Below, one piece after another: positions 6,206 to 26,784 of a stretch of 34,055 nucleotides of DNA (the first letter of the stretch is position 1; each line of letters begins with the position of its first letter). The notes beneath the pieces were generated by a model. The model made no database searches, had not been told where the DNA came from, and was given only the letters and a program-made list of their open reading frames with translations. Location of the stretch: assembly GCA_020631455.1 (NCBI GenBank), contig JAHDHF010000013.1, positions 1-34,055 of the forward strand, in the 5' to 3' direction. A program made the translations under genes and the position numbers. Source of the stretch: Saprospiraceae bacterium. GTDB lineage: Bacteria; Bacteroidota; Bacteroidia; Chitinophagales; Saprospiraceae.

Positions 6206-6278
6206 TAAATAAAAAGTGATTTAAAATTGAGTATAGAACTAATTTATTAGCGGTTTGTTGTTTATAAAAACGCTGCAA

Positions 6279-7925
6279 ATGACATTAACCCCTGTTAAAC
6301 GATTTTGGAAAGTATTAAAACCCTACAGAAGTCAAATTCGACAGATCTATACGTTCGCATTGTTTATCGGGATAGTTAACTTAACACTTCCTTTAGGAAT
6401 ACAAGCAATTATCAATTTCCTTCAAGCAGGCGAGTACACGACGACATGGATTATACTAGTCACCTTTGTATTAATCGGTATCGCTCTTTCTGGATTTTTA
6501 CAAGTATTGCAGCTTCGGATAGTTGAAAATATACAACAAGATTTATTTGCAAAATCTGCATTCGAGTTTGCGTATCGCTTACCTAAAATTTCAAATCTAA
6601 AACTCGACAAAATACATTTACCAGAACTTGTCAATCGTTTTTTTGATACGATTACAATTCAAAAAGGATTACCTAAAATATTAATTGATTTTTCGCTTTC
6701 CATATTTCAAATCATATTTGGATTAGCTCTTTTAACTATTTACAGCCCATATTTTATTATTCTGGGTGTTATACTCACTGTAACCCTCTGGGTGACGTTC
6801 AAAATCACTGGCCCTAAGGGATTGAAAACAAGTCTAACAGAGAGTTCAAACAAATATAAACTTGCGCACTGGCTTGAAGAGATTGCACGTGTCAACGGGA
6901 GTTTCAAGGTTTTTGCAAATCACAACCTACACCTCAACAAAACTGACACAATTGCAGAGGAATATATTATATCGAGAGAAAGCCACTTTCAGGTATTACT
7001 CAATCAATTTCGCCTATTTATAGGTTTTAAGGTGATTGTGGCAGCTGGCTTACTTGTGTTAGGCGGCTACTTAGTCTTTCAAGAGCAAATGAATCTAGGG
7101 CAATTTGTTGCTGCTGAAATTATTGTGATTTTAATAATAAACTCAGTAGAAAAAATACTAAGAATCACCGACACCATATATGACGTCTTAACTTCAATTG
7201 ATAAAATCGGATTTGTCGCTGATCTTGATTTGGATGAAGTTGGTGGAGTTGCTCAAGTGCATTCAGAGCAAGGTTTACATATTGAAGTGCAAGAAATGTC
7301 TTTCGGTTTTCCAGATTCAAATAAAAGTATTTTCAACAACTTATCCTTTACAATAGACTCAAATGAAAAACGTGTTCTAAAAGGCAACTCAGGTAGTGGT
7401 AAAACTTTATTACTTAGAATATTATCTGGTACATTACCTCTCGACAATGGTGAAATTTATTTAAACAATACTCCAATTTCATCATATTCTAAAGATGAAA
7501 TTTATAAAAGTATTGGTGTCTCATTTCCTACCAATCAAATTTTTGATGGAACCATTTACGAAAATATTTTACTTGGGCGAAATATATCTGAAGATGTTGT
7601 AACAGATATGATTCGTAATCTCAATTTCAAACAATATGTAATCCAACAGCCGTATGGTATCCATACTCAAATTGACAGCGGCGGAAGGCGCCTTCCGCGC
7701 AGTATAATTCAAAAAATACTCATAGCTCGATTGCTTATTGGAAGCCCGAAATTATTATTAATGGAAGACCCTTTACAGTTCATTAATGATATTGATAAGA
7801 AAAAAATAATTGACTATATAGTGGATGATGAAAGAAACTGGACAGTCCTTGTGATTTCAGATTATTATTACTGGGAAGAAAAATGCTCAAGCACTCTTGA
7901 TTTAAACCTATTAAAAAAAGCCTAA
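6279..7925 (+). CDS. type I secretion ABC transporter (membrane + ATPase) with unusual ATPase motifs
   Basis: Protein of 548 residues: a six-helix exporter membrane domain (about 20-300) fused to an ABC ATPase domain. Walker A is intact (KGNSGSGKT, about 368-376) and the signature region reads SGGRRLPRS (about 467-475). Three other motifs are off: Walker B plus catalytic base is LLLMEDP instead of LLxxDEP (Asp and Glu swapped), the Q-loop position is Pro (about 417), and the H-loop His is Asp in VLVISDYY (about 528). There is no N-terminal C39 peptidase domain. The downstream HlyD and TolC partners mark it as the inner-membrane part of a type I secretion system. The ATG at 6279 is preferred over a TTG at 6255. 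The operon is clearly more AT-rich than its neighbours. Confidence 0.88.
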   Translation: MTLTPVKRFWKVLKPYRSQIRQIYTFALFIGIVNLTLPLGIQAIINFLQAGEYTTTWIILVTFVLIGIALSGFLQVLQLRIVENIQQDLFAKSAFEFAYRLPKISNLKLDKIHLPELVNRFFDTITIQKGLPKILIDFSLSIFQIIFGLALLTIYSPYFIILGVILTVTLWVTFKITGPKGLKTSLTESSNKYKLAHWLEEIARVNGSFKVFANHNLHLNKTDTIAEEYIISRESHFQVLLNQFRLFIGFKVIVAAGLLVLGGYLVFQEQMNLGQFVAAEIIVILIINSVEKILRITDTIYDVLTSIDKIGFVADLDLDEVGGVAQVHSEQGLHIEVQEMSFGFPDSNKSIFNNLSFTIDSNEKRVLKGNSGSGKTLLLRILSGTLPLDNGEIYLNNTPISSYSKDEIYKSIGVSFPTNQIFDGTIYENILLGRNISEDVVTDMIRNLNFKQYVIQQPYGIHTQIDSGGRRLPRSIIQKILIARLLIGSPKLLLMEDPLQFINDIDKKKIIDYIVDDERNWTVLVISDYYYWEEKCSSTLDLNLLKKA

Positions 7926-7926
7926 C

Positions 7927-9303
7927 ATGCTTAATATAACAACCAATAGCATTAGAGGTGCATTTAAGCTAGAGGACTTCAAATCGCATAAACAATTAAA
8001 GCGAAGCAATATCCGTAAACTGCCATTAATAATTATTATAGTACTTATTGGCATTGGGTTTTTCGCCATTTTCCTTCCTTGGACTCAAAATGTAAGAGCA
8101 ACTGGGAAAGTGACAACACGATCTCCTCAACAGCGACCACAAGGAATACAAGCAGTCATTTCTGGTAGGCTTGATAAATGGTATGTACAAGAAGGAGATT
8201 TTGTCAATAGAGGAGATACAATTGTATTTATTTCAGAGGTTTCAAGTGACTACTTTGATCCAAATCTTATTTCACGTACTTCCGAACAGATCGACGCTAA
8301 GCGATTAAGTATATCATCTTATGACCAAAAAGTAGCAGCTATTGAAGATCAGTACGCAGCATTGCTAGAGACAAAAAATCTAAAGTTGAGGCAGCTTGCC
8401 AATAAAATCGAACAAACTAAAGTTAAAATCAGTGCTGACTCTCTAGACCTTGTTGCCACTGAGAGAAATATCCTTCTCGTCAAAAATCAATTACAACGTA
8501 CCCAAGAACTTTATACTAAAGGCTTAAAGACACTTACAGAGCTGCAGGATAAGAAATATAAAGTACAAACTGCTGAAGCAAAATACGCTATTAAGAAAAA
8601 CAAACTATTAAATCTTGAAAACGATATTAATAATTTAGTATTAGAGCAGAAATCAGTTGAAAAAATATACTTAGACAAAATCTCAAAGTCTATATCTGAT
8701 AAGCAATCTGCACTCGCATCAAAATTAGAAAGCGTAGCGTCTACGGCTAAACTCGAAAATCAACTAATCAACTATAGTGCTCGCAGAGATTTTAAATATA
8801 TTACTGCTCCACAATCTGGATATATTACAAAGACAATAACGAAAGGTATCGGAGAGGTAATAAAACAAGGAAACGATGTCGCTACAATTATGCCGATCGA
8901 TTATACTTTGGCAGTTGAGGCATATATCAAACCCAGAGACCTTCCTTTGCTTAGTATTCATAATGAAGTGAAGTTACGTTTTGATGGCTGGCCTGCAATC
9001 GTCATTAGTGGGTGGCCAGAGTCCTCAACAGGTATTTTTACTGGGCGGATTGTAGCAATAGACAAATTTATTAGTGATAATGGTTTATATAGAATTCTAG
9101 TTAGCCCTGATGAAGTTGAGAAAGACTGGCCTGGTAAGCTTAGTATAGGTACAGGGTCTCAAGTTTTCATTCTGTTAAAAGATGTGCCAATCTGGTATGA
9201 AATATGGCGACAACTCAACGGTTTTCCTCAAGAGTATTATGATATACAGGAGCCAGAGAAAGAAAGCATAAAAAGAAAAGCACCACTGAAGTCAGTAAAG
9301 TAA
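7927..9303 (+). CDS. HlyD-family membrane fusion protein
   Basis: Periplasmic adaptor of 458 residues that would join the ABC transporter to the outer-membrane channel. One transmembrane helix (LPLIIIIVLIGIGFFAIF, about 33-50) follows a short cytoplasmic tail. A lipoyl-like half follows (ISGRLDKWYVQEGDFVNRGD), then a long coiled-coil hairpin of about 180 residues, the second lipoyl half (ITAPQSGYITK) and a beta-barrel part with LRFDGWPAIVISGWPE. That last motif I associate with the Bacteroidota version of the family. It starts one base after the transporter stop. Coding sequence is AT-rich like the rest of the operon. Confidence 0.92.
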   Translation: MLNITTNSIRGAFKLEDFKSHKQLKRSNIRKLPLIIIIVLIGIGFFAIFLPWTQNVRATGKVTTRSPQQRPQGIQAVISGRLDKWYVQEGDFVNRGDTIVFISEVSSDYFDPNLISRTSEQIDAKRLSISSYDQKVAAIEDQYAALLETKNLKLRQLANKIEQTKVKISADSLDLVATERNILLVKNQLQRTQELYTKGLKTLTELQDKKYKVQTAEAKYAIKKNKLLNLENDINNLVLEQKSVEKIYLDKISKSISDKQSALASKLESVASTAKLENQLINYSARRDFKYITAPQSGYITKTITKGIGEVIKQGNDVATIMPIDYTLAVEAYIKPRDLPLLSIHNEVKLRFDGWPAIVISGWPESSTGIFTGRIVAIDKFISDNGLYRILVSPDEVEKDWPGKLSIGTGSQVFILLKDVPIWYEIWRQLNGFPQEYYDIQEPEKESIKRKAPLKSVK

Positions 9304-9327
9304 TTTACTATTCACAAAACAGATACA

Positions 9328-10713
9328 ATGCGCTTTGCTTTATTTATTTTTTCGATTTATTTTTTGTCAACATCATTCGTACAATGTCAAACAGCAATTG
9401 ATACGCTCCGGTATTCTGATTTCATACTTAATGTAATGAGATACCATCCTCTCGCATTACAAGCAGATCTCAAAATAGATCAAGCTGAAGCCCAAACATT
9501 AGTAGCAAAAGGGGCTCTTGACCCTAAACTAAAAACAGGGTGGAGCTCAAAAAACTTTGATAACAAATTATACTTTAGAAAGTATGACGCTTCGATTAAA
9601 GTGCCCACTACTACTGGTGTGCAATTTATCGCTGGCTATGAAAACACTTTAGGGCAATTTATAAATCAAGAAAACACTATAACTAATAGAGGTCTTTGGA
9701 ATATTGGCATTGAGGCTGATATACTACAAGGGCTGCTAATGAATGATCGAAAGGTAGCCCTTGAACAAGCGGCATTGTACTCTGAACTAGCGAATTTTGA
9801 AAGACAAATTCTTTTAAATCAATTGATGTATGAAGCGGCTGTTTCTTACGTCTTGTGGCAACAGTTTTCAGAATTTAATGGTATTCTACTTGAAAATGAA
9901 CGTCTTGCTCAATCGTATTTTAACAACACAAAGCAATCATTTACGAGTGGAGAAAAAACAGCAATGGATACTCTAGAGGCAACTATTGCTTTGCAGGATG
10001 CCGGGCTCTTACGATTGAAGTTAAATCAAAAGCTTATTAAAGCAACTGAAAACCTTGAAACGTATTTGTGGCTAGATCAATCACCTGCACAACTTTTGCC
10101 TACTGTTAAGCCTGAGCAGGCGAGGGCTGCTTTTTATACACAAATTACATCCTTGGAGAATATTGTGATCGACCAGCATCCTATAATCCTCTCGTATCAA
10201 AATAAAATAAGCACCTTGAGGCTAGACCTTCGTTTAAAACGGGAGAAACTAAAGCCTAAACTAAAAGTAAAATACAACCCTTTGCTTGCCACATCACAAG
10301 AAAGCATTGCTCCAAATGTTTCTGTAAATGATTTCAAATTTGGATTTAATTTTTCTATGCCACTTTTGTTTCGAGGTGCGCGCGGTCAAGTAGATCTCGG
10401 AAACATCAAAATAAAAGAGACAGAATATTTAGTTGAAAACAAACGTAATGAACTACTTAATAAATTAGAAAGTATATGGCAAGAATATGATGTCAAAAAG
10501 AAACAAGCTGAAGTGATATCAAATAATGTTAATGATTATAAAACGCTACTTGATGGCGAAAATATAAAGTACCAATACGGTGAAAGTTCTTTCTTTCTAT
10601 TAAATAAACGGCAAGAAAAATATATAGAAGGTTTACTAAAAGAAATTGAAGTCGGTGCTGAATTAAAGTTGCTATTACTTGAGTATTTATTTCTTTCGAA
10701 CCAACTAATGTGA
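9328..10713 (+). CDS. TolC-like outer-membrane efflux protein
   Basis: Protein of 461 residues with a signal peptide (MRFALFIFSIYFLSTSF, cleavage near VQCQ) and the long alpha-helical repeats of the OEP family. The MRYHPLALQADLKIDQAEAQ segment near the N-terminus matches the first helix hairpin, and a second copy (QHPIILSYQNKISTLRLDLR) occurs near residue 286, as expected for the internal duplication of TolC. It would trimerise to form the exit duct for the HlyD/ABC pair. It lies 24 bp after hlyD, is the last gene of the operon, and is followed by repeat B. No candidate secreted substrate is encoded in the operon. Confidence 0.9.
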   Translation: MRFALFIFSIYFLSTSFVQCQTAIDTLRYSDFILNVMRYHPLALQADLKIDQAEAQTLVAKGALDPKLKTGWSSKNFDNKLYFRKYDASIKVPTTTGVQFIAGYENTLGQFINQENTITNRGLWNIGIEADILQGLLMNDRKVALEQAALYSELANFERQILLNQLMYEAAVSYVLWQQFSEFNGILLENERLAQSYFNNTKQSFTSGEKTAMDTLEATIALQDAGLLRLKLNQKLIKATENLETYLWLDQSPAQLLPTVKPEQARAAFYTQITSLENIVIDQHPIILSYQNKISTLRLDLRLKREKLKPKLKVKYNPLLATSQESIAPNVSVNDFKFGFNFSMPLLFRGARGQVDLGNIKIKETEYLVENKRNELLNKLESIWQEYDVKKKQAEVISNNVNDYKTLLDGENIKYQYGESSFFLLNKRQEKYIEGLLKEIEVGAELKLLLLEYLFLSNQLM

Positions 10714-14227: not shown

Positions 14228-17200
14228 ATGAAAAAACTACTACTCATTCTATCGAGTTTAAGTTTGTTGTTTGCAACAAACCTCTTTGCTCAACCAGCAG
14301 GAGCACCATTTCTGTGTTCTGATGCTGATGGTATTATTGTCAACGTAAATGGCGGCAATTCTTATACAGGAGTTTGTCCTACAAGTTCTCCAATTACGAT
14401 CTTTTCATCGTTTTCTACGACATTTTCTTTCGAATATAATTCTGATGGATTTCCAGAAGAGCATGTCCTTACATTTGGTTCTGCAGGCACAGCTGGCGGA
14501 GAAGCAGAGATGAATGCTCTTCTTGAAAGTTTGTTTGGTCCACCTATTAGTTCGACTACGGACTATGATGTAGGATTGTTTATTCCATTATGGGCTACAG
14601 GAGATATCACATTTGAAGATATCGCTGGAGATGGATTCTCTTGTGAAGACGGATATTTTGTTCTCTATGATCCAAGTGGGGCTGTAATTGCAACATTTGA
14701 CAACACAAACTTCGATTGTGATGGCGGCACGGGTGCCTGCTCGGGTACTACTTGTGCTCAAGCTACAGGTGCACAGATCATTGGTTCAATGAACAACTAC
14801 CTTGGTGGTACGCTTACATTGACATCTGATATCGATGGAGCGTTAGCTACAGCTACTGCAGGTTCTGCTGAGCAGATTGGTGATGGTTTGTTCCAGTGGA
14901 CGATTGATCCTGCTACACTTTCTCCAGGCACGCACACAATCACTACTGTGCTCTCTGGCTCAGGCATTGGATGCGATGGCTCTACCTCTACTGCTAGCAC
15001 AACATCTAGCATTACTATTGAAGTACTTCCAGCTTCTGATCCATCTTGCGTATTCTGTAGCAATGCAGACAATCCTAATCCTGCTGCTAGCGGTGCAAAC
15101 TGTACTGATCCTGGATGTTTGACTACTGTACAAGCTCCAAATGCAGTTGACGGAACAGATTTTACGTTCCCTACGGATTATCAATTCAATGATGCACCAG
15201 ATCAATTTGCAACACCAATTTCTGCTGAAGTTGAGTATTGCTTTACATACACAGCAACAACAGAAGATGGCTTCTCTATACTTTTAGGTACATCAACTCT
15301 TGAGTCAAATAACACAAACGGTACTCTCGAGTGTGGAGCAGCCATAACAGCTCTATCTATTTTTGATGCATCTGATTGTTCTACTGCTCTAGCCACAAAT
15401 ACAACATTCTTCGGACCAACAACTATAGGCACAACATATACAGTTTGTTACACGGCTGTTGCTTTTGATGCTGATGAAGGAGCAGATGGTATTTATGGTA
15501 CAGCCGATGACGGACCGCCTTCTGATGGAGATTGCTTGCATAATGGAACATACGTTACAGTTGTTCCTTCAGAATGTCTTGCTGATGCAGGTACGATGTC
15601 AGTTGATGCTAATATCCTTTGTATAGGAGCTACTGCTAACTTCCAAGCTGGAGGTGATAATAGCTGGGCTGGCGAATTAGAAGAAGACATGATCTTCGGC
15701 TTGTATTCAGCAGCTCCTGTTGATGGTGTTAATCCACTCACAGATCCTACTTTCCTTGGAGTATTAGGAGGTGGAGATTTCTCCTTATCTGCCACTCTTA
15801 CGAATAATATAGGCAATAATACAATATATTACGTTGCTCCTGTTGCTTCATTTGGTGATGGTGATCCGTTTGCAGACAACTTCTTTGTTTCGATTGATAA
15901 TGATGGTGATGGAGCTGATGATGGACCAGATTGTTTTGATGTTAATGTCGCTGAGACCGAAATGATAGTTTTACTTAACCCTGTTACAGCGGCTCCTGTT
16001 GTGACTTGTGCTACGAGCGATCCATATACTTATGATGTTACGTACACAATCCAAGGAGGTCTTCCTGGTTATGATGCTTCAACATTTACTGTTTCTGATG
16101 ACCAAGGTGGAGCTGGTGATGCTGCTCTTGCTAATGGTGGTACTTATACAGTATCAGGAGTAGCACCAGGTACAACTGTAAATGTGACGGCACTAGACGG
16201 AAATGGCTGCACAGTTACTGTTCCTTTTACCACTCCTGTAGCACCAGTAGCAACGGTTACGGACCCTGACGGAGCTCTTTTTGTATGTGTAGATGATGCA
16301 CCTATTGCAATTAACGGTACTTCACTTCCTGGTGATTTCGGCTCTGTCTCAGTCACAATTGAAGGTGACGACTGGTCAAACTCTGAGCAAGTAGTCGAGG
16401 TATATGATGTAAATGGAGTACTGGTTGCCACTGCTGCGGCAGGTACATTCACAAGTAATGGCACATCGACATGGACATCACCAGCACTTGCATTAGCTGA
16501 CGGTCCGTTCGAGATTCGTGTCATTGATACATATGGTGATGGTATTACTATTCCTGGTACTTGTGGTGGTAGCGGTGATCCAGCTGATAATGGTTCAGTT
16601 ACAGTCGTTGATGGACAGGGAAATGTTCTTGTCGGACCAACGACTCTTGTAGATGATGGACTAAACCCAGACGTTGTTGGTCCAGGAGACGGATGTACAG
16701 GTGCATTTGATGGTTCGGCTCCTGCATATGTTACAGTAACAGCCACTCCAGCACTAGATTTTTCTACTACTGGTGTCTTTGGTGGCCCTGGTGCTCAAGA
16801 CGGCGCTACAACCAATGATGGAGCAGGCGTATTTGATCCTGCTGCTGCTGCTGCTGCTATGGGAGGACCTGGTACTACAACGATTTCTTACACATTCACT
16901 GATCAGTTTGGTTGTGTTGCTGTAGCCGAGCAAACAGTAGTCGTTGATGATGCATCTACTAATCCTGCATGTACTACGCTTCCTATCGAGTTGACTAGTT
17001 TCGAAGGCCTAATTGATGGTTCACGTAATCTCCTCAAGTGGGTGACTTCTACAGAGGTGAATACACGTGAATTTGTGATCGAGCGTTCTGCTAATGGTGT
17101 ATCAGATTGGACGACAGTCGGTACACAAGCTGCAGCGGGCAACAGCTCTACAGCTCAGTACTATCAAATGCATGACAACAATCCAATGACAGTAAGCTAC

Positions 17201-17539
17201 TACCGTTTACGTTCGATTGATCTTGATGATTCATACGAGCTATCAAATGTTGTACGACTTGAGCGCACGACTGGCGGCTTCAGTATAGGATCTGTATTCC
17301 CAGTACCAGCACAAAGTGTGATGAACATCGACTTTGAGGTTACGAGCCTCGATGCAGTTCAAGTAAACGTTGTAGACGCTCTTGGCCGCAGAGTCATCAA
17401 CGATGTCATCAATCCTTCGGATGTTGGAATCAATACACACGCGCTAAACATCGATCAGCTTGCTGATGGTGTGTACATCCTCGTACTCGAGAATGGTAGC
17501 GATCGTGTAGCTCACAAATTTGTGAAAGCACGTCCTTAA
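14228..17539 (+). CDS. large secreted protein with type IX secretion C-terminal sorting domain
   Basis: Protein of 1103 residues with a signal peptide (MKKLLLILSSLSLLFATNLFA). The long middle part is rich in Gly, Ala, Thr and Asp with many cysteines and beta-rich, Ig-like stretches. A segment near 920-1010 starts LPIELTSFEG and continues LLKWVTSTEVNTREFVIERS; this is the fibronectin-like module often found just before the T9SS tail. The last about 80 residues are a type A sorting domain: FPVPAQSVMNIDFEV, VNVVDALGRRV, LADGVYILVLENG and HKFVKARP. It should be exported by Sec, then T9SS, and anchored or released at the surface. No catalytic domain is visible; adhesion or a matrix role is a guess. 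A strong terminator follows. Confidence 0.88.
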   Translation: MKKLLLILSSLSLLFATNLFAQPAGAPFLCSDADGIIVNVNGGNSYTGVCPTSSPITIFSSFSTTFSFEYNSDGFPEEHVLTFGSAGTAGGEAEMNALLESLFGPPISSTTDYDVGLFIPLWATGDITFEDIAGDGFSCEDGYFVLYDPSGAVIATFDNTNFDCDGGTGACSGTTCAQATGAQIIGSMNNYLGGTLTLTSDIDGALATATAGSAEQIGDGLFQWTIDPATLSPGTHTITTVLSGSGIGCDGSTSTASTTSSITIEVLPASDPSCVFCSNADNPNPAASGANCTDPGCLTTVQAPNAVDGTDFTFPTDYQFNDAPDQFATPISAEVEYCFTYTATTEDGFSILLGTSTLESNNTNGTLECGAAITALSIFDASDCSTALATNTTFFGPTTIGTTYTVCYTAVAFDADEGADGIYGTADDGPPSDGDCLHNGTYVTVVPSECLADAGTMSVDANILCIGATANFQAGGDNSWAGELEEDMIFGLYSAAPVDGVNPLTDPTFLGVLGGGDFSLSATLTNNIGNNTIYYVAPVASFGDGDPFADNFFVSIDNDGDGADDGPDCFDVNVAETEMIVLLNPVTAAPVVTCATSDPYTYDVTYTIQGGLPGYDASTFTVSDDQGGAGDAALANGGTYTVSGVAPGTTVNVTALDGNGCTVTVPFTTPVAPVATVTDPDGALFVCVDDAPIAINGTSLPGDFGSVSVTIEGDDWSNSEQVVEVYDVNGVLVATAAAGTFTSNGTSTWTSPALALADGPFEIRVIDTYGDGITIPGTCGGSGDPADNGSVTVVDGQGNVLVGPTTLVDDGLNPDVVGPGDGCTGAFDGSAPAYVTVTATPALDFSTTGVFGGPGAQDGATTNDGAGVFDPAAAAAAMGGPGTTTISYTFTDQFGCVAVAEQTVVVDDASTNPACTTLPIELTSFEGLIDGSRNLLKWVTSTEVNTREFVIERSANGVSDWTTVGTQAAAGNSSTAQYYQMHDNNPMTVSYYRLRSIDLDDSYELSNVVRLERTTGGFSIGSVFPVPAQSVMNIDFEVTSLDAVQVNVVDALGRRVINDVINPSDVGINTHALNIDQLADGVYILVLENGSDRVAHKFVKARP

Positions 17540-23548: not shown

Positions 23549-24381
23549 AACTCTATGACAAAGCAGCTCAAGCAGCAGAATACATCCGAGCGCGCGCAAA
23601 TATCAATGATGTGACTTGTGGCGTCATACTCGGTACGGGTTTGAGCGGCTTGCGCGAGATGATTGAGCAGCCGATTGTCATTGCTTATGATGACATTCCG
23701 TATATGCCATCAAGTACAGTCGAGAGCCATGCTGGTCAACTCATCATCGGGACATTGCATGGCGTTCGTGTCGCGGCATTTGCTGGTCGTTTTCATTATT
23801 ACGAAGGCTATTCTGAGGAGGAGATTACATTTGGCGTTCGAGTGCTGGGCCTTCTTGGCGCAGAGGCTCTTTTTGTCGGAAGCGCGGTCGGCGGATTGCA
23901 AGGCGAGCAATCGGCTGGCGACATTGCACTCATCCGCGATCATATCAATTTACTTCCGATCAATCCGCTCCGTGGTGAAAATGATGAGCGTTTTGGGCCG
24001 CGATTTCCTGATATGATGAAAAGCTATGATGAGTTGTTTCGTCAAGCGGCTCATGACATCGCTCAAGAAGAAAACATCAAACTGCATAACGCTGTCTATG
24101 TCGCTACTCAAGGGCCGTCACTCGAGACGCCTGCTGAGTATCAATACATGAATCGAATCGGTGGTGATGTTGTCGGGATGAGTACCGTACCTGAGGTAAT
24201 CGCAGCTCGACATCAAGGTATTCGAGTTTGTGTACTCGGTGTTATTTCAAATGTTTGCTTTCCGCTCGACCGACTTACAAAGACAACAATTGAAGAAGTA
24301 TTAAAAACTGTAGAGGAAGCGGCTCCAAAGATGCAATTGCTCGTTTCGCGTCTTATACAGACTACGAAATTGTTTTTTTGA
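23545..24381 (+). CDS. purine nucleoside phosphorylase
   Basis: Trimeric-type PNP of 278 residues. It splits purine nucleosides with phosphate into base and ribose 1-phosphate. Recognisable parts: ILGTGLSGL (phosphate loop, usually GSGLG), GRFHYYEGY, the GSAVGGLQ region (usually NAAGGL), the signature TQGPSLETPAEY and VVGMSTVPEVIAARH, and the base-pocket Asn in VISNVCF. I start it at the ATG overlapping the kinase stop; an in-frame ATG at 23491 lies deep inside the kinase gene. The last 20 bp overlap the convergent glycosyltransferase gene. Confidence 0.95.
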   Translation: MKLYDKAAQAAEYIRARANINDVTCGVILGTGLSGLREMIEQPIVIAYDDIPYMPSSTVESHAGQLIIGTLHGVRVAAFAGRFHYYEGYSEEEITFGVRVLGLLGAEALFVGSAVGGLQGEQSAGDIALIRDHINLLPINPLRGENDERFGPRFPDMMKSYDELFRQAAHDIAQEENIKLHNAVYVATQGPSLETPAEYQYMNRIGGDVVGMSTVPEVIAARHQGIRVCVLGVISNVCFPLDRLTKTTIEEVLKTVEEAAPKMQLLVSRLIQTTKLFF

Positions 24382-25309
24382 TTTTTCGAAACACTTTTTT
24401 GAAAATTCTTGGAATCGGAAGTTTATTGTACCAAGCTGTATGAATAGGTTGTGATGGTCGATTATATAATTGTTTCCATTCGAGATGATGCATCCATTGG
24501 ACTTCGATATCATATTTTTCAAACAGATTTCCTAGAAAACTATTTTTAACAACGATGTTTTTATTTATTCCGCGAGTCCTCCATTCTTCATTCATCCAAT
24601 GGATTAATGGTGTATTTGGTGTATTTCGAGCTGAATAAATAAGCGGCACAATAGTGTCCCACCAATCTGGTGGTGCAAGTTTGTCGATCGTATATTTTTG
24701 AAGATTTTGCTGCTTGACTTCATCTATTAAAATTTGAATCGGCTTAAACCAATCCGTATTATTTTCATCGACAGTTTCTATTCCTTTTTTGTAGCAATTA
24801 ATCATTAGATCGCACTTAGGCGGCACGTGCATGATGTTGCCGACAAGGGGAAGTTTTGGGTGTTTTCTAAAAACGTAGCCTTTTTCAGAAAACTCTGGCA
24901 GCCGACCCAAACATGTAATGTCCATATCTGTCCACCAGCCGCCATATTCGTATAATAATTTGTAACGAAATAAATCAGAAAAACCAGCAAGGCTGCCTTT
25001 TCCGTGCCCCCATTGATTTGAGTTTTTGTATGAAAAAATCTGTTCTTTTGGAATTATTTCAGCAGCGTTTTTAATAGTTAGACCTTCAGGTAAATCAGTT
25101 TGAATGTCATCATATTTCCAGAGCCAAAAATCGTATCCAAACCGGATGAAGGAATGAATTGTCAGCAATTCAAGCCCAGACAACTCTGAGCCAATCCACA
25201 TGCCATGAACGATATTTGAATGCTTGTACAGTTCGTATGATTTTCCTCTAAGATACAGAGCTTTTATTTCGCTTCTGTGACATTCAAAACTTCTTTGCAG
25301 TCTCGCCAC
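24362..25309 (-). CDS. glycosyltransferase, GT32-like (DxD sugar transferase)
   Basis: Protein of up to 315 residues. The family core is NIVHGMWIGSELSGLELL (about 32-49, like the IPKIIHQIW opening of GT32 enzymes) and LFRYKLLYEYGGWWTDMDI, which holds the metal-binding DxD at D128/D130. It would transfer a sugar from a nucleotide donor, probably to a surface glycan. A GTG at 25309 gives a 46-bp overlap with the upstream glycosyltransferase; the first 30 residues do not look like a domain, and the next ATG (25201) is too late, so the true start is unsure. The C-terminus is basic (KKVFRKIKKTIS). The gene is AT-rich. Confidence 0.82.
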   Translation of the reverse strand: MARLQRSFECHRSEIKALYLRGKSYELYKHSNIVHGMWIGSELSGLELLTIHSFIRFGYDFWLWKYDDIQTDLPEGLTIKNAAEIIPKEQIFSYKNSNQWGHGKGSLAGFSDLFRYKLLYEYGGWWTDMDITCLGRLPEFSEKGYVFRKHPKLPLVGNIMHVPPKCDLMINCYKKGIETVDENNTDWFKPIQILIDEVKQQNLQKYTIDKLAPPDWWDTIVPLIYSARNTPNTPLIHWMNEEWRTRGINKNIVVKNSFLGNLFEKYDIEVQWMHHLEWKQLYNRPSQPIHTAWYNKLPIPRIFKKVFRKIKKTIS

Positions 25310-26784
25310 AACTGCCAGTCATCATCACCCCAATGGTGATAAATGTGCAATAATGAAGGTGTAATACGTTTGTCAAAAACTTCAAATTCAAAATTGCCTT
25401 TGTAGAGAATCTCTTCTTTGTAGTAATCTGCTATAAAATTCCACTCTTGCGGCAGCGTTGGATGGTCTTGTAGTTGATGATCCCAGACAGTTGCTATGAG
25501 TGTTCCTTGATCACGCGTTTTCCAGTTTGGAAATGTGAAAGCGGCAAGACAACGCTGCTTCCAATCATATAAAAATGATTTTGCCGATTTGTCAAAAATA
25601 AAAACACCGCCATTCCAGTGCTGCCAATCTTCAATGTTGATGATGATTTTAAAATCTGTTTCTATTGTTTTTTTAAGTGCAGTTGACTTTTTTACATATT
25701 GAATGATTGTCCCTTCTGCAAGTTTAAAAGATTGGTTTTCGGGGTTATAGATGCACCCTGTTCGTTGATAAATATTCTCTACAAGGGGATAAGATTTCCA
25801 GAATAACGAACCGTCTTTATTGTGCCACGATTCAGATTTTGGATCGTAAGACAAATTGTGACCTTTGACATAATCAGAAAAAGTTATTAGTCTTGAATCG
25901 TCAATGTGTAAGTCGGTTGCTTTATCACGAAAGGAGTTGTTTTTTTGATCCCAAATTATATTATAATTAGTAAAAAAAAATTTCTTGTATTTTAGATCGG
26001 TAGCAGTCCATAGACCATTTCCATCTGTTTCGAATAAATATTGACTATTATTTCTAAAATATTTTTTTAAAAAAAACCGATTAATTTTCCCTCGAATTCT
26101 ATCAATAAGAGAATTCGATTGGAGAAGAGAATTCATTTTCTTGACGCGTAGTATCGGCTTTGTCTTATGGTATTTTTTTTCTTCGAAGTAGCTGTCACGA
26201 GCTTTACGCAGCCGATCGGATGGTTCATTATGAGCAGCCTCTCGCTTATAAGCTTTTGTAATGTCTATAACCTTTAGGTAGGCAGCTTCGTGCTTGAGTT
26301 GGTGTTTACGTTGATCTTCAAAAATGTCTTTTACAGAAGCTTTTATTTCTGCGAAGCGTCTATTCGTCTCTTCAGAGCTTTCTTCATGCACAGCACTTAA
26401 TGCAAACTCCTGCATCGTGCAGTGATCTGGAGCAAAAGTGATTGGAGCTACAAAGTGATCAGCAATATCCTCGACAGGCAGCCGAACAGGTAATATATCT
26501 GTATCTAGATAAACCCAATAATCAGCTAAACTCCAGTCAACGTAATCGTAAAGCCCAGTTTTGAGTAGAATCGCAGCCTCATGATGCGAAAATGAATCAT
26601 CGATGTCGATATCGACGACTCGATTATGATTGATTGGCAGTTCATTTCGTTTTCTATCAGTGACGACGAGAATCGGGCTGCTTGTAGATGATCGCCATAA
26701 AGGAAGAACATCGTGGAGTGTGTCGATATGCAATTTGGCCCCGACTGCGACAAAAACGAACCCTATTTTTTTAGCTTTTTTCAA
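25264..26784 (-). CDS. GT8-like glycosyltransferase with a large repeat-containing insert
   Basis: Protein of 506 residues from a TTG start. The ends form a GT-A fold: KKIGFVFVAVG at the N-terminus, WVYLDTDILP with DxD at D94/D96, then, much later, WQHWNGGVFIFDKS (388-400), RDQGTLIA (424-431) and LLHIYHHWG (478-486), the usual GT8 order. Between about 120 and 385 is an insert. Its first half is charged and helical; its second half holds about four repeats of the type hydrophobic-(W/Y/F)-(D/E/N)-x-x-x-x-(S/L)-(F/W), near 248, 275, 310 and 343. The insert is unusual for GT8 and may bind the acceptor. The gene is AT-rich and is followed, with overlap, by the GT32-like gene. Confidence 0.78.
   Translation of the reverse strand: MKKAKKIGFVFVAVGAKLHIDTLHDVLPLWRSSTSSPILVVTDRKRNELPINHNRVVDIDIDDSFSHHEAAILLKTGLYDYVDWSLADYWVYLDTDILPVRLPVEDIADHFVAPITFAPDHCTMQEFALSAVHEESSEETNRRFAEIKASVKDIFEDQRKHQLKHEAAYLKVIDITKAYKREAAHNEPSDRLRKARDSYFEEKKYHKTKPILRVKKMNSLLQSNSLIDRIRGKINRFFLKKYFRNNSQYLFETDGNGLWTATDLKYKKFFFTNYNIIWDQKNNSFRDKATDLHIDDSRLITFSDYVKGHNLSYDPKSESWHNKDGSLFWKSYPLVENIYQRTGCIYNPENQSFKLAEGTIIQYVKKSTALKKTIETDFKIIINIEDWQHWNGGVFIFDKSAKSFLYDWKQRCLAAFTFPNWKTRDQGTLIATVWDHQLQDHPTLPQEWNFIADYYKEEILYKGNFEFEVFDKRITPSLLHIYHHWGDDDWQLWRDCKEVLNVTEAK

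Follow-up and report, generated by a model that had tools for sequence, protein, structure and literature searches.

The window analysed here, a stretch of 34,055 nucleotides from a Saprospiraceae bacterium, encodes a protein whose glycosyltransferase motifs stand unusually far apart. What fills the space between these motifs, and is it a described trait of GT8 enzymes or the mark of a family of its own? The reading frame at 25264-26784 is open throughout, and its 506-amino-acid product had originally been predicted to be a GT8-like enzyme split by an insert that contains repeats. The features that identify the enzyme are listed here, with residues numbered in the window protein.

25264..26784, (-): GT8-like glycosyltransferase, 506 amino acids, TTG start (open reading frame, model, fold match and relatives)
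26497..26505, (-): DxD motif, D94-T-D96; both Asp in 92 of 92 family members
25594..25623, (-): strand QHWNGGVFIF, residues 388-397, counterpart of the GT8 NxGV strand
25504..25515, (-): RDQG motif, residues 424-427, counterpart of the GT8 DQ motif; R, D and Q in 92 of 92
25345..25347, (-): H480, counterpart of the GT-A C-terminal metal-binding histidine; 92 of 92

Searches with the protein sequence against Pfam, NCBIfam and the PDB returned no match at E values up to 10. The structure predicted for the protein has a GT-A core, mostly with pLDDT over 90, whose best fold match is glycogenin (Z 18.2, 217 residues aligned, rmsd 3.2 Å); LgtC (Z 17.0), WbbM (Z 17.2) and LARGE1 (Z 17.2) are further matches, as are GlyE and UGGT, and Foldseek gives 2.4e-5. 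By prediction, the fold class is GT-A, GT8-like. The motif YLDTD occupies residues 92-96 and QHWNGGVFIFD starts at residue 388. When 92 distinct family members, the window protein included, are aligned, DxD, HxxGG, RDQ and the C-terminal histidine are invariant (D94, D96, D425, Q426 and H480 in window numbering), and H389, G392, G393 and F395 are each found in all 92; the NxG strand is present in ordinary GT8s as well. From the invariant DxD, DQ and C-terminal histidine we argue for an active transferase of GT8 type that depends on metal. The protein is a GT-A glycosyltransferase, and probably a retaining one.

It is the distance from DxD to WNGG that sets the protein apart. About 265 residues had been estimated to lie between the motifs; the length is indeed unusual but the figure was too low, as we count 293, compared with 53-63 residues from DxD to NxG in ordinary Pfam GT8 (PF01501) proteins of related genomes. 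In the structure model a single GT-A core is interrupted between beta6 (residues 115-123) and beta7 (residues 388-397). Taujale et al. (PMC7185993) name the beta6/beta7 position HV2, one of the GT-A hypervariable regions, and report that residues particular to each family, used in recognising the acceptor, lie in these regions. The interruption contains the following elements.

25624..26415, (-): HV2 insert, residues 124-387, between beta6 and beta7 (model; the insert is missing in a Methylomagnum homolog)
26167..26373, (-): helical segment within the insert, residues 138-206 (model helices 138-164, 166-185 and 187-206)
25975..26175, (-): residues 204-270, which the model could not predict (pLDDT under 50), containing an unsupported repeat unit near residue 248
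25903..25959, (-): hairpin unit C, residues 276-294, IIWDQKNNSFRDKATDLHI (matrix; model strands 276-279 and 284-287)
25798..25854, (-): family-wide hairpin unit A, from residue 311 to 329, LSYDPKSESWHNKDGSLFW (matrix; model strands 311-314, 319-322 and 327-330)
25699..25755, (-): family-wide hairpin unit B, from residue 344 to 362, CIYNPENQSFKLAEGTIIQ (matrix; model strands 345-347, 352-354 and 360-362)

Four repeat units with the look of beta hairpins had been proposed within the insert. We scored the window protein with a position matrix derived from hairpin units elsewhere in the family, the window protein itself being excluded. Three units are supported: the one at residue 311 (2e-6 per position; position-restricted p 0.0009), the one at 344 (6e-5 per position; position-restricted p 0.0008) and the one at 276 (5e-4 per position; position-restricted p 0.006). 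They do not overlap and follow one another at intervals of 35 and 33 residues; two such matrix matches were seen in 0 of 500 trials with shuffled sequences. The fourth proposed unit, near residue 248, scores below zero (p 0.12). Structure prediction, which had been put forward as a check, likewise yields the GT-A core and three hairpin units and leaves the fourth in a region (residues 204-270) of very low pLDDT. Each of the three supported units is modelled as a short helix plus a beta hairpin, with pLDDT of roughly 70-91 across residues 271-370; in this respect the hairpin reading of the repeats was right.

The original prediction also proposed to look for the repeat in other proteins, and here, in 295 genomes of the class and in the PDB, nothing convincing emerged beyond the GT8-like hairpin-arm family. 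Strong matches of the repeat profile in the 295 genomes are confined to this family, and the weak matches outside it are to unrelated repeat or adhesin-like proteins. Among PDB entries the best match is PvuII (E 0.016, weak) and the remaining short matches are likewise weak; we rejected all of these. When the insert was scanned by itself against Pfam, all matches stayed below threshold (MADF_DNA_bdg at E 0.026, Kelch_6 at E 0.16).

The insert becomes easier to interpret when the relatives of the window protein are considered. Kinship with this family is supported by a sequence match (E 3.9e-68 to a same-family relative) and by the tree. When a single genome of each bacterial and archaeal species was scanned, at least 79 loci emerged, and the 79 retained carry Bacteroidota names; profile searches found the family in 27 of 395 genomes sampled from the class, and in the phylum sample the one genome to contain it was that of the window. 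Neither Pfam nor NCBIfam has a model that covers this Bacteroidia family, and PF01501 matches 12 of the 92 members weakly (best 4.4e-5). A profile of the whole family gave a weak PDB match to acyl carrier protein over about 50-70 residues, which we judged to be due to chance. A search for phage relatives found none, nor did a search of viral contigs with the compact Methylomagnum query, and the window contains no tRNA and no Rfam matches. At two loci, L027 (5992-8473) and L029 (5983-8473), genes of the GT8-like family occur as tandem pairs that overlap by a few bases.

Across the 92 members the gap between the motifs has a median of 188 residues (interquartile range 186-193, range 177 to 308), and the matrix recognises both unit A and unit B in 85 of them, the window protein among these. 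The insert is thus the norm for this Bacteroidia family, and in the window protein it is longer than usual. Most members have two units, Taishania pollutisoli (L050) among them; the window protein, L002, L018, L020 and L024 have three, and L019 has four. At the low end are L123, with a single unit recognised by eye from the alignment, and the Methylomagnum homolog L171, with none.

A second pattern frames the insert. A C-x-C motif soon after beta6 and a C-x-H motif just before the QHWNGG strand are both found in 82 of the 92 members (C-x-H is replaced by C-x-Y in one of the 82), both halves are missing in the other 10, namely the window protein and nine Saprospiraceae-type relatives, and no member has only one half. 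To judge from the sequences, C-x-C...C-x-H looks like a metal clasp of three cysteines and one histidine at the base of the arm, and we refer to it as a putative clasp. The homolog L171, encoded on a plasmid of the gammaproteobacterium Methylomagnum ishizawai, has a GT8-like domain without the insert: only 73 residues separate its motifs, the two Cys/His halves lie near each other, and it reads CECIGDKGQNCSH. In the Bacteroidia proteins the insert thus separates C-x-C from C-x-H and is a true insertion. This natural insert-less homolog, the fold comparison and the hairpins seen in both sequence and model together uphold the original view of a GT8-like enzyme split by an insert that holds repeats. 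Because the Methylomagnum homolog, our one insert-less example, has ordinary GT8-like spacing, insertion in Bacteroidia is the simpler reading than loss of the insert in the Methylomagnum lineage. The GT8-like domain of L171 is fused to GT4-type domains in a protein of 1095 amino acids that is annotated as hypothetical.

In the Saprospiraceae-type group that includes the window protein, the putative clasp has been lost and the insert has been lengthened; the protein of Phaeodactylibacter xiamenensis (L025) is another clasp-less one. These two changes are separable, since L019 and L024 have long inserts yet keep the Cys motif. We considered a separate origin for the clasp loss and long insert of the window protein, which a first tree placed with L019, and rejected it; the tree that holds the ten clasp-less proteins together is better (p-AU 0.67). 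A single origin for these proteins is thus not rejected, and they can form one clade in sequence trees. The branch of the window protein is long, at 1.57 changes per column.

The GT8-like gene of the window has a partner, which lies immediately downstream on the same strand.

24362..25309, (-): GT32-like glycosyltransferase (Gly_transf_sug; PF04488, 2.8e-7, above cut-off)

This gene adjoins and overlaps the GT8-like gene, and the two encode separate proteins, not one chain. Within 25170-25309, (-), ahead of its first conserved strand, the GT32-like gene has no ATG; the sole listed upstream start is a GTG at 25309, which gives an overlap of 46 bases with the GT8-like gene. Among relatives, 16 of the 92 distinct members carry a GT32-like domain as a C-terminal fusion to the GT8-like protein; counted by locus, 29 of 79 have this domain, 13 as a fusion and 16 close by. 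The model of one fused relative, L006, includes the two-hairpin arm and both domains, with a mean pLDDT of 93.7. Downstream of the GT8-like gene of L020 there are two GT32-like genes in tandem (7513-9136).

Other genes recur around the family. The neighbours in the 79 loci include an AsnB-like amidotransferase (52 loci), a UbiA prenyltransferase (44) and a radical SAM/SPASM cluster (37; labelled from its tested members), and many relatives also have sugar epimerases, GDSL-type proteins and PhyH enzymes nearby. The set of radical SAM, asnB, UbiA and GT8-like genes that is common to Bacteroidia is also found with L171 (NZ_AP019784.1, 3582-13411), and in this Methylomagnum cluster the radical SAM, asnB and UbiA trio adjoins a Wzm/Wzt-type exporter with a Wzt_C domain. 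The AsnB-like enzyme of the relatives has its top score with eps_aminotran_1 (TIGR03108), below the cut-off of that model, and scores above the cut-off of the asparagine synthase model; a WbpS-type AsnB-like enzyme makes a uronamide in the Porphyromonas T9SS anchor glycan (PMC7468200). Judged by their sequences, the relatives' neighbour genes point to a surface or lipid-linked glycan. A gene-by-gene search of the window's genome for pathway homologs showed that its glycosyltransferase pair lies apart from them: the AsnB homolog (56% identity) is on another contig, beside a distant relative of a transglutaminase-like gene, and the UbiA (39%) and radical SAM (40%) homologs are on other contigs as well.

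Several further observations concern the neighbourhoods. At L033 (9186-11999), and similarly in about 22 loci, a large protein near the GT8-like gene has a weakly PMT_2-like N-terminal part and C-terminal TPRs, and might be a membrane glycosyltransferase. The window itself has three consecutive genes at 6255-10713 that, on reading, resemble type I secretion machinery: an ABC exporter, an adaptor of the HlyD type and a TolC-like channel. A link between this set and the GT8-like gene, with which it shares a contig, is unsupported, as the ABC-sized neighbour of the relatives is an asparagine-synthase-like enzyme. Also on reading, the window encodes at 14228-17539 a secreted protein of 1103 amino acids with an apparent type IX secretion C-terminal sorting domain.

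How might such an arm work? We propose, with about an even chance of being right, that this is a GT8-like family in which an HV2 arm of hairpin units positions the acceptor, and which is paired with a GT32-like enzyme in the window and in some relatives. The HV2 loop would have been enlarged by the inserted arm, composed of a helical stem and tandem helix-hairpin units of about 33 residues each, and in most members the flanking C-x-C and C-x-H would form a metal clasp that closes the stem. Projecting from the acceptor side, the arm would help the enzyme to bind the acceptor glycan and hold it in position, its reach being tuned by the number of repeats (0 to 4). In the window and some relatives, the GT8-like and GT32-like enzymes would act one after the other on a single glycan, either lipid-linked or on the surface, the GT32-like partner adding the neighbouring sugar; the donor sugar and the pathway product, like metal binding and the acceptor role, are what we infer rather than observe. 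That the insert binds a glycan or protein acceptor, as first suggested, is plausible because it lies in HV2, an acceptor-specificity region of GT-A enzymes (PMC7185993). Against the proposal count the separation of the window's glycosyltransferase pair from the pathway homologs and the lack of the GT8 lysine motif KPW; moreover, the aromatic side chains of the hairpins may be nothing more than the hairpin cores.

Other explanations must be weighed against this proposal. The arm could instead be a docking module for the GT32-like enzyme, for the AsnB-like or UbiA enzyme or for export machinery, and make no contact with the acceptor. Hairpin repeats are common protein-binding elements, fusion to and adjacency with GT32-like partners recur, and the multi-gene neighbourhood is conserved across Bacteroidia and Methylomagnum; all of this would suit docking, which we nonetheless regard as rather unlikely. 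Fused proteins, which need no GT32 docking, retain the two-hairpin arm, and this argues mildly against docking of the GT32-like partner, as does, for docking in general, the acceptor-side position of HV2. It is improbable, in our judgement, that the arm serves mainly as structural padding, a long-standing stabilising insertion whose repeat number drifts neutrally and whose clasp was lost by relaxed constraint in one group. The units are little conserved among themselves, the length changes greatly and the window protein has its long branch, as padding would predict; however, both hairpins are kept in all but seven members, and drift alone does not readily give a strict all-or-none Cys/His pattern.

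Least credible, and in our view very improbable, is that we are dealing here with an ordinary GT8 enzyme whose insert is a described trait of a GT8 subfamily. The GT8-like fold and the weak PF01501 matches of some members speak for this, but the window protein itself has no Pfam or NCBIfam match, ordinary GT8s have the far shorter gap given above, and we found no description in the literature of the insert as a GT8 subfamily trait. In addition, a KPW motif in HV3 is common to the GT8 clade (PMC7185993), and this motif is absent from the window protein, in which the sequence after H480 is HIYHHWGDDDW. Because it falls outside the Pfam cut-off and lacks the KPW mark, we file the window protein, compared via Pfam and NCBIfam, as a separate GT8-like family within the GT-A fold.

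The feature is therefore more general and more orderly than it was first read to be, in an enzyme class that is already known. New acceptor specificity of GT-A enzymes is thought to depend on hypervariable loops. The acceptor-positioning proposal can be extended, more tentatively, to the possibility that a metal-clasped acceptor-loop site took up 0 to 4 hairpin units and so became an adjustable module for reading the acceptor or holding the chain, the clasp being dropped in one lineage. What the family offers is a natural series of 0, 1, 2, 3 and 4 units at one site, with and without the putative clasp, in an otherwise conserved enzyme; with such a series, comparing members or simply deleting the arm would test what an HV2 arm does. 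The analysis also adds an enzyme family that neither Pfam nor NCBIfam models, together with a conserved and undescribed cluster of glycan genes (AsnB-like, UbiA, radical SAM/SPASM, GT8-like and often GT32-like genes) in Bacteroidia and on a Methylomagnum plasmid.

Comparison with known systems shows what is shared and what is altered. The GT8 enzymes (glycogenin, LgtC and GlyE; PF01501) share the GT-A fold, DxD, an NxGV-type strand, the DQ motif and the C-terminal histidine; they differ in that the window protein is without a Pfam match and in the gap, 293 residues here and 188 at the family median. With the HV2 insertions of GT-A enzymes (PMC7185993) the arm shares its position in the fold, its family-specific character and a proposed role in acceptor specificity, but variable tandem hairpins within C-x-C...C-x-H are not among the features described in the available part of that study. 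The WbpS uronamide pathway, of O-antigen and the T9SS anchor glycan, is similar in that TIGR03108, which the relatives' AsnB-like enzyme matches best, is the family of WbpS and PGN_1234, and in the Wzt_C exporter of the Methylomagnum cluster. In contrast, the TIGR03108 score is below cut-off, UbiA is not mentioned in PMC7468200, and the window's glycosyltransferase pair lies outside the cluster. An amidotransferase clustered with sugar genes is seen in relatives; in the window's genome the homologs are on other contigs. Finally, WbbM of Klebsiella, described as GT111 plus GT8 (PMC12269835), and LARGE1 are two-domain glycan polymerases; what is available of their descriptions includes no large hairpin arm. 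Like them, relatives of the window protein pair a GT8-type domain with a second transferase, but here the partner is GT32-like, lies at the C-terminus where it is fused, and in the window is encoded by a separate gene.
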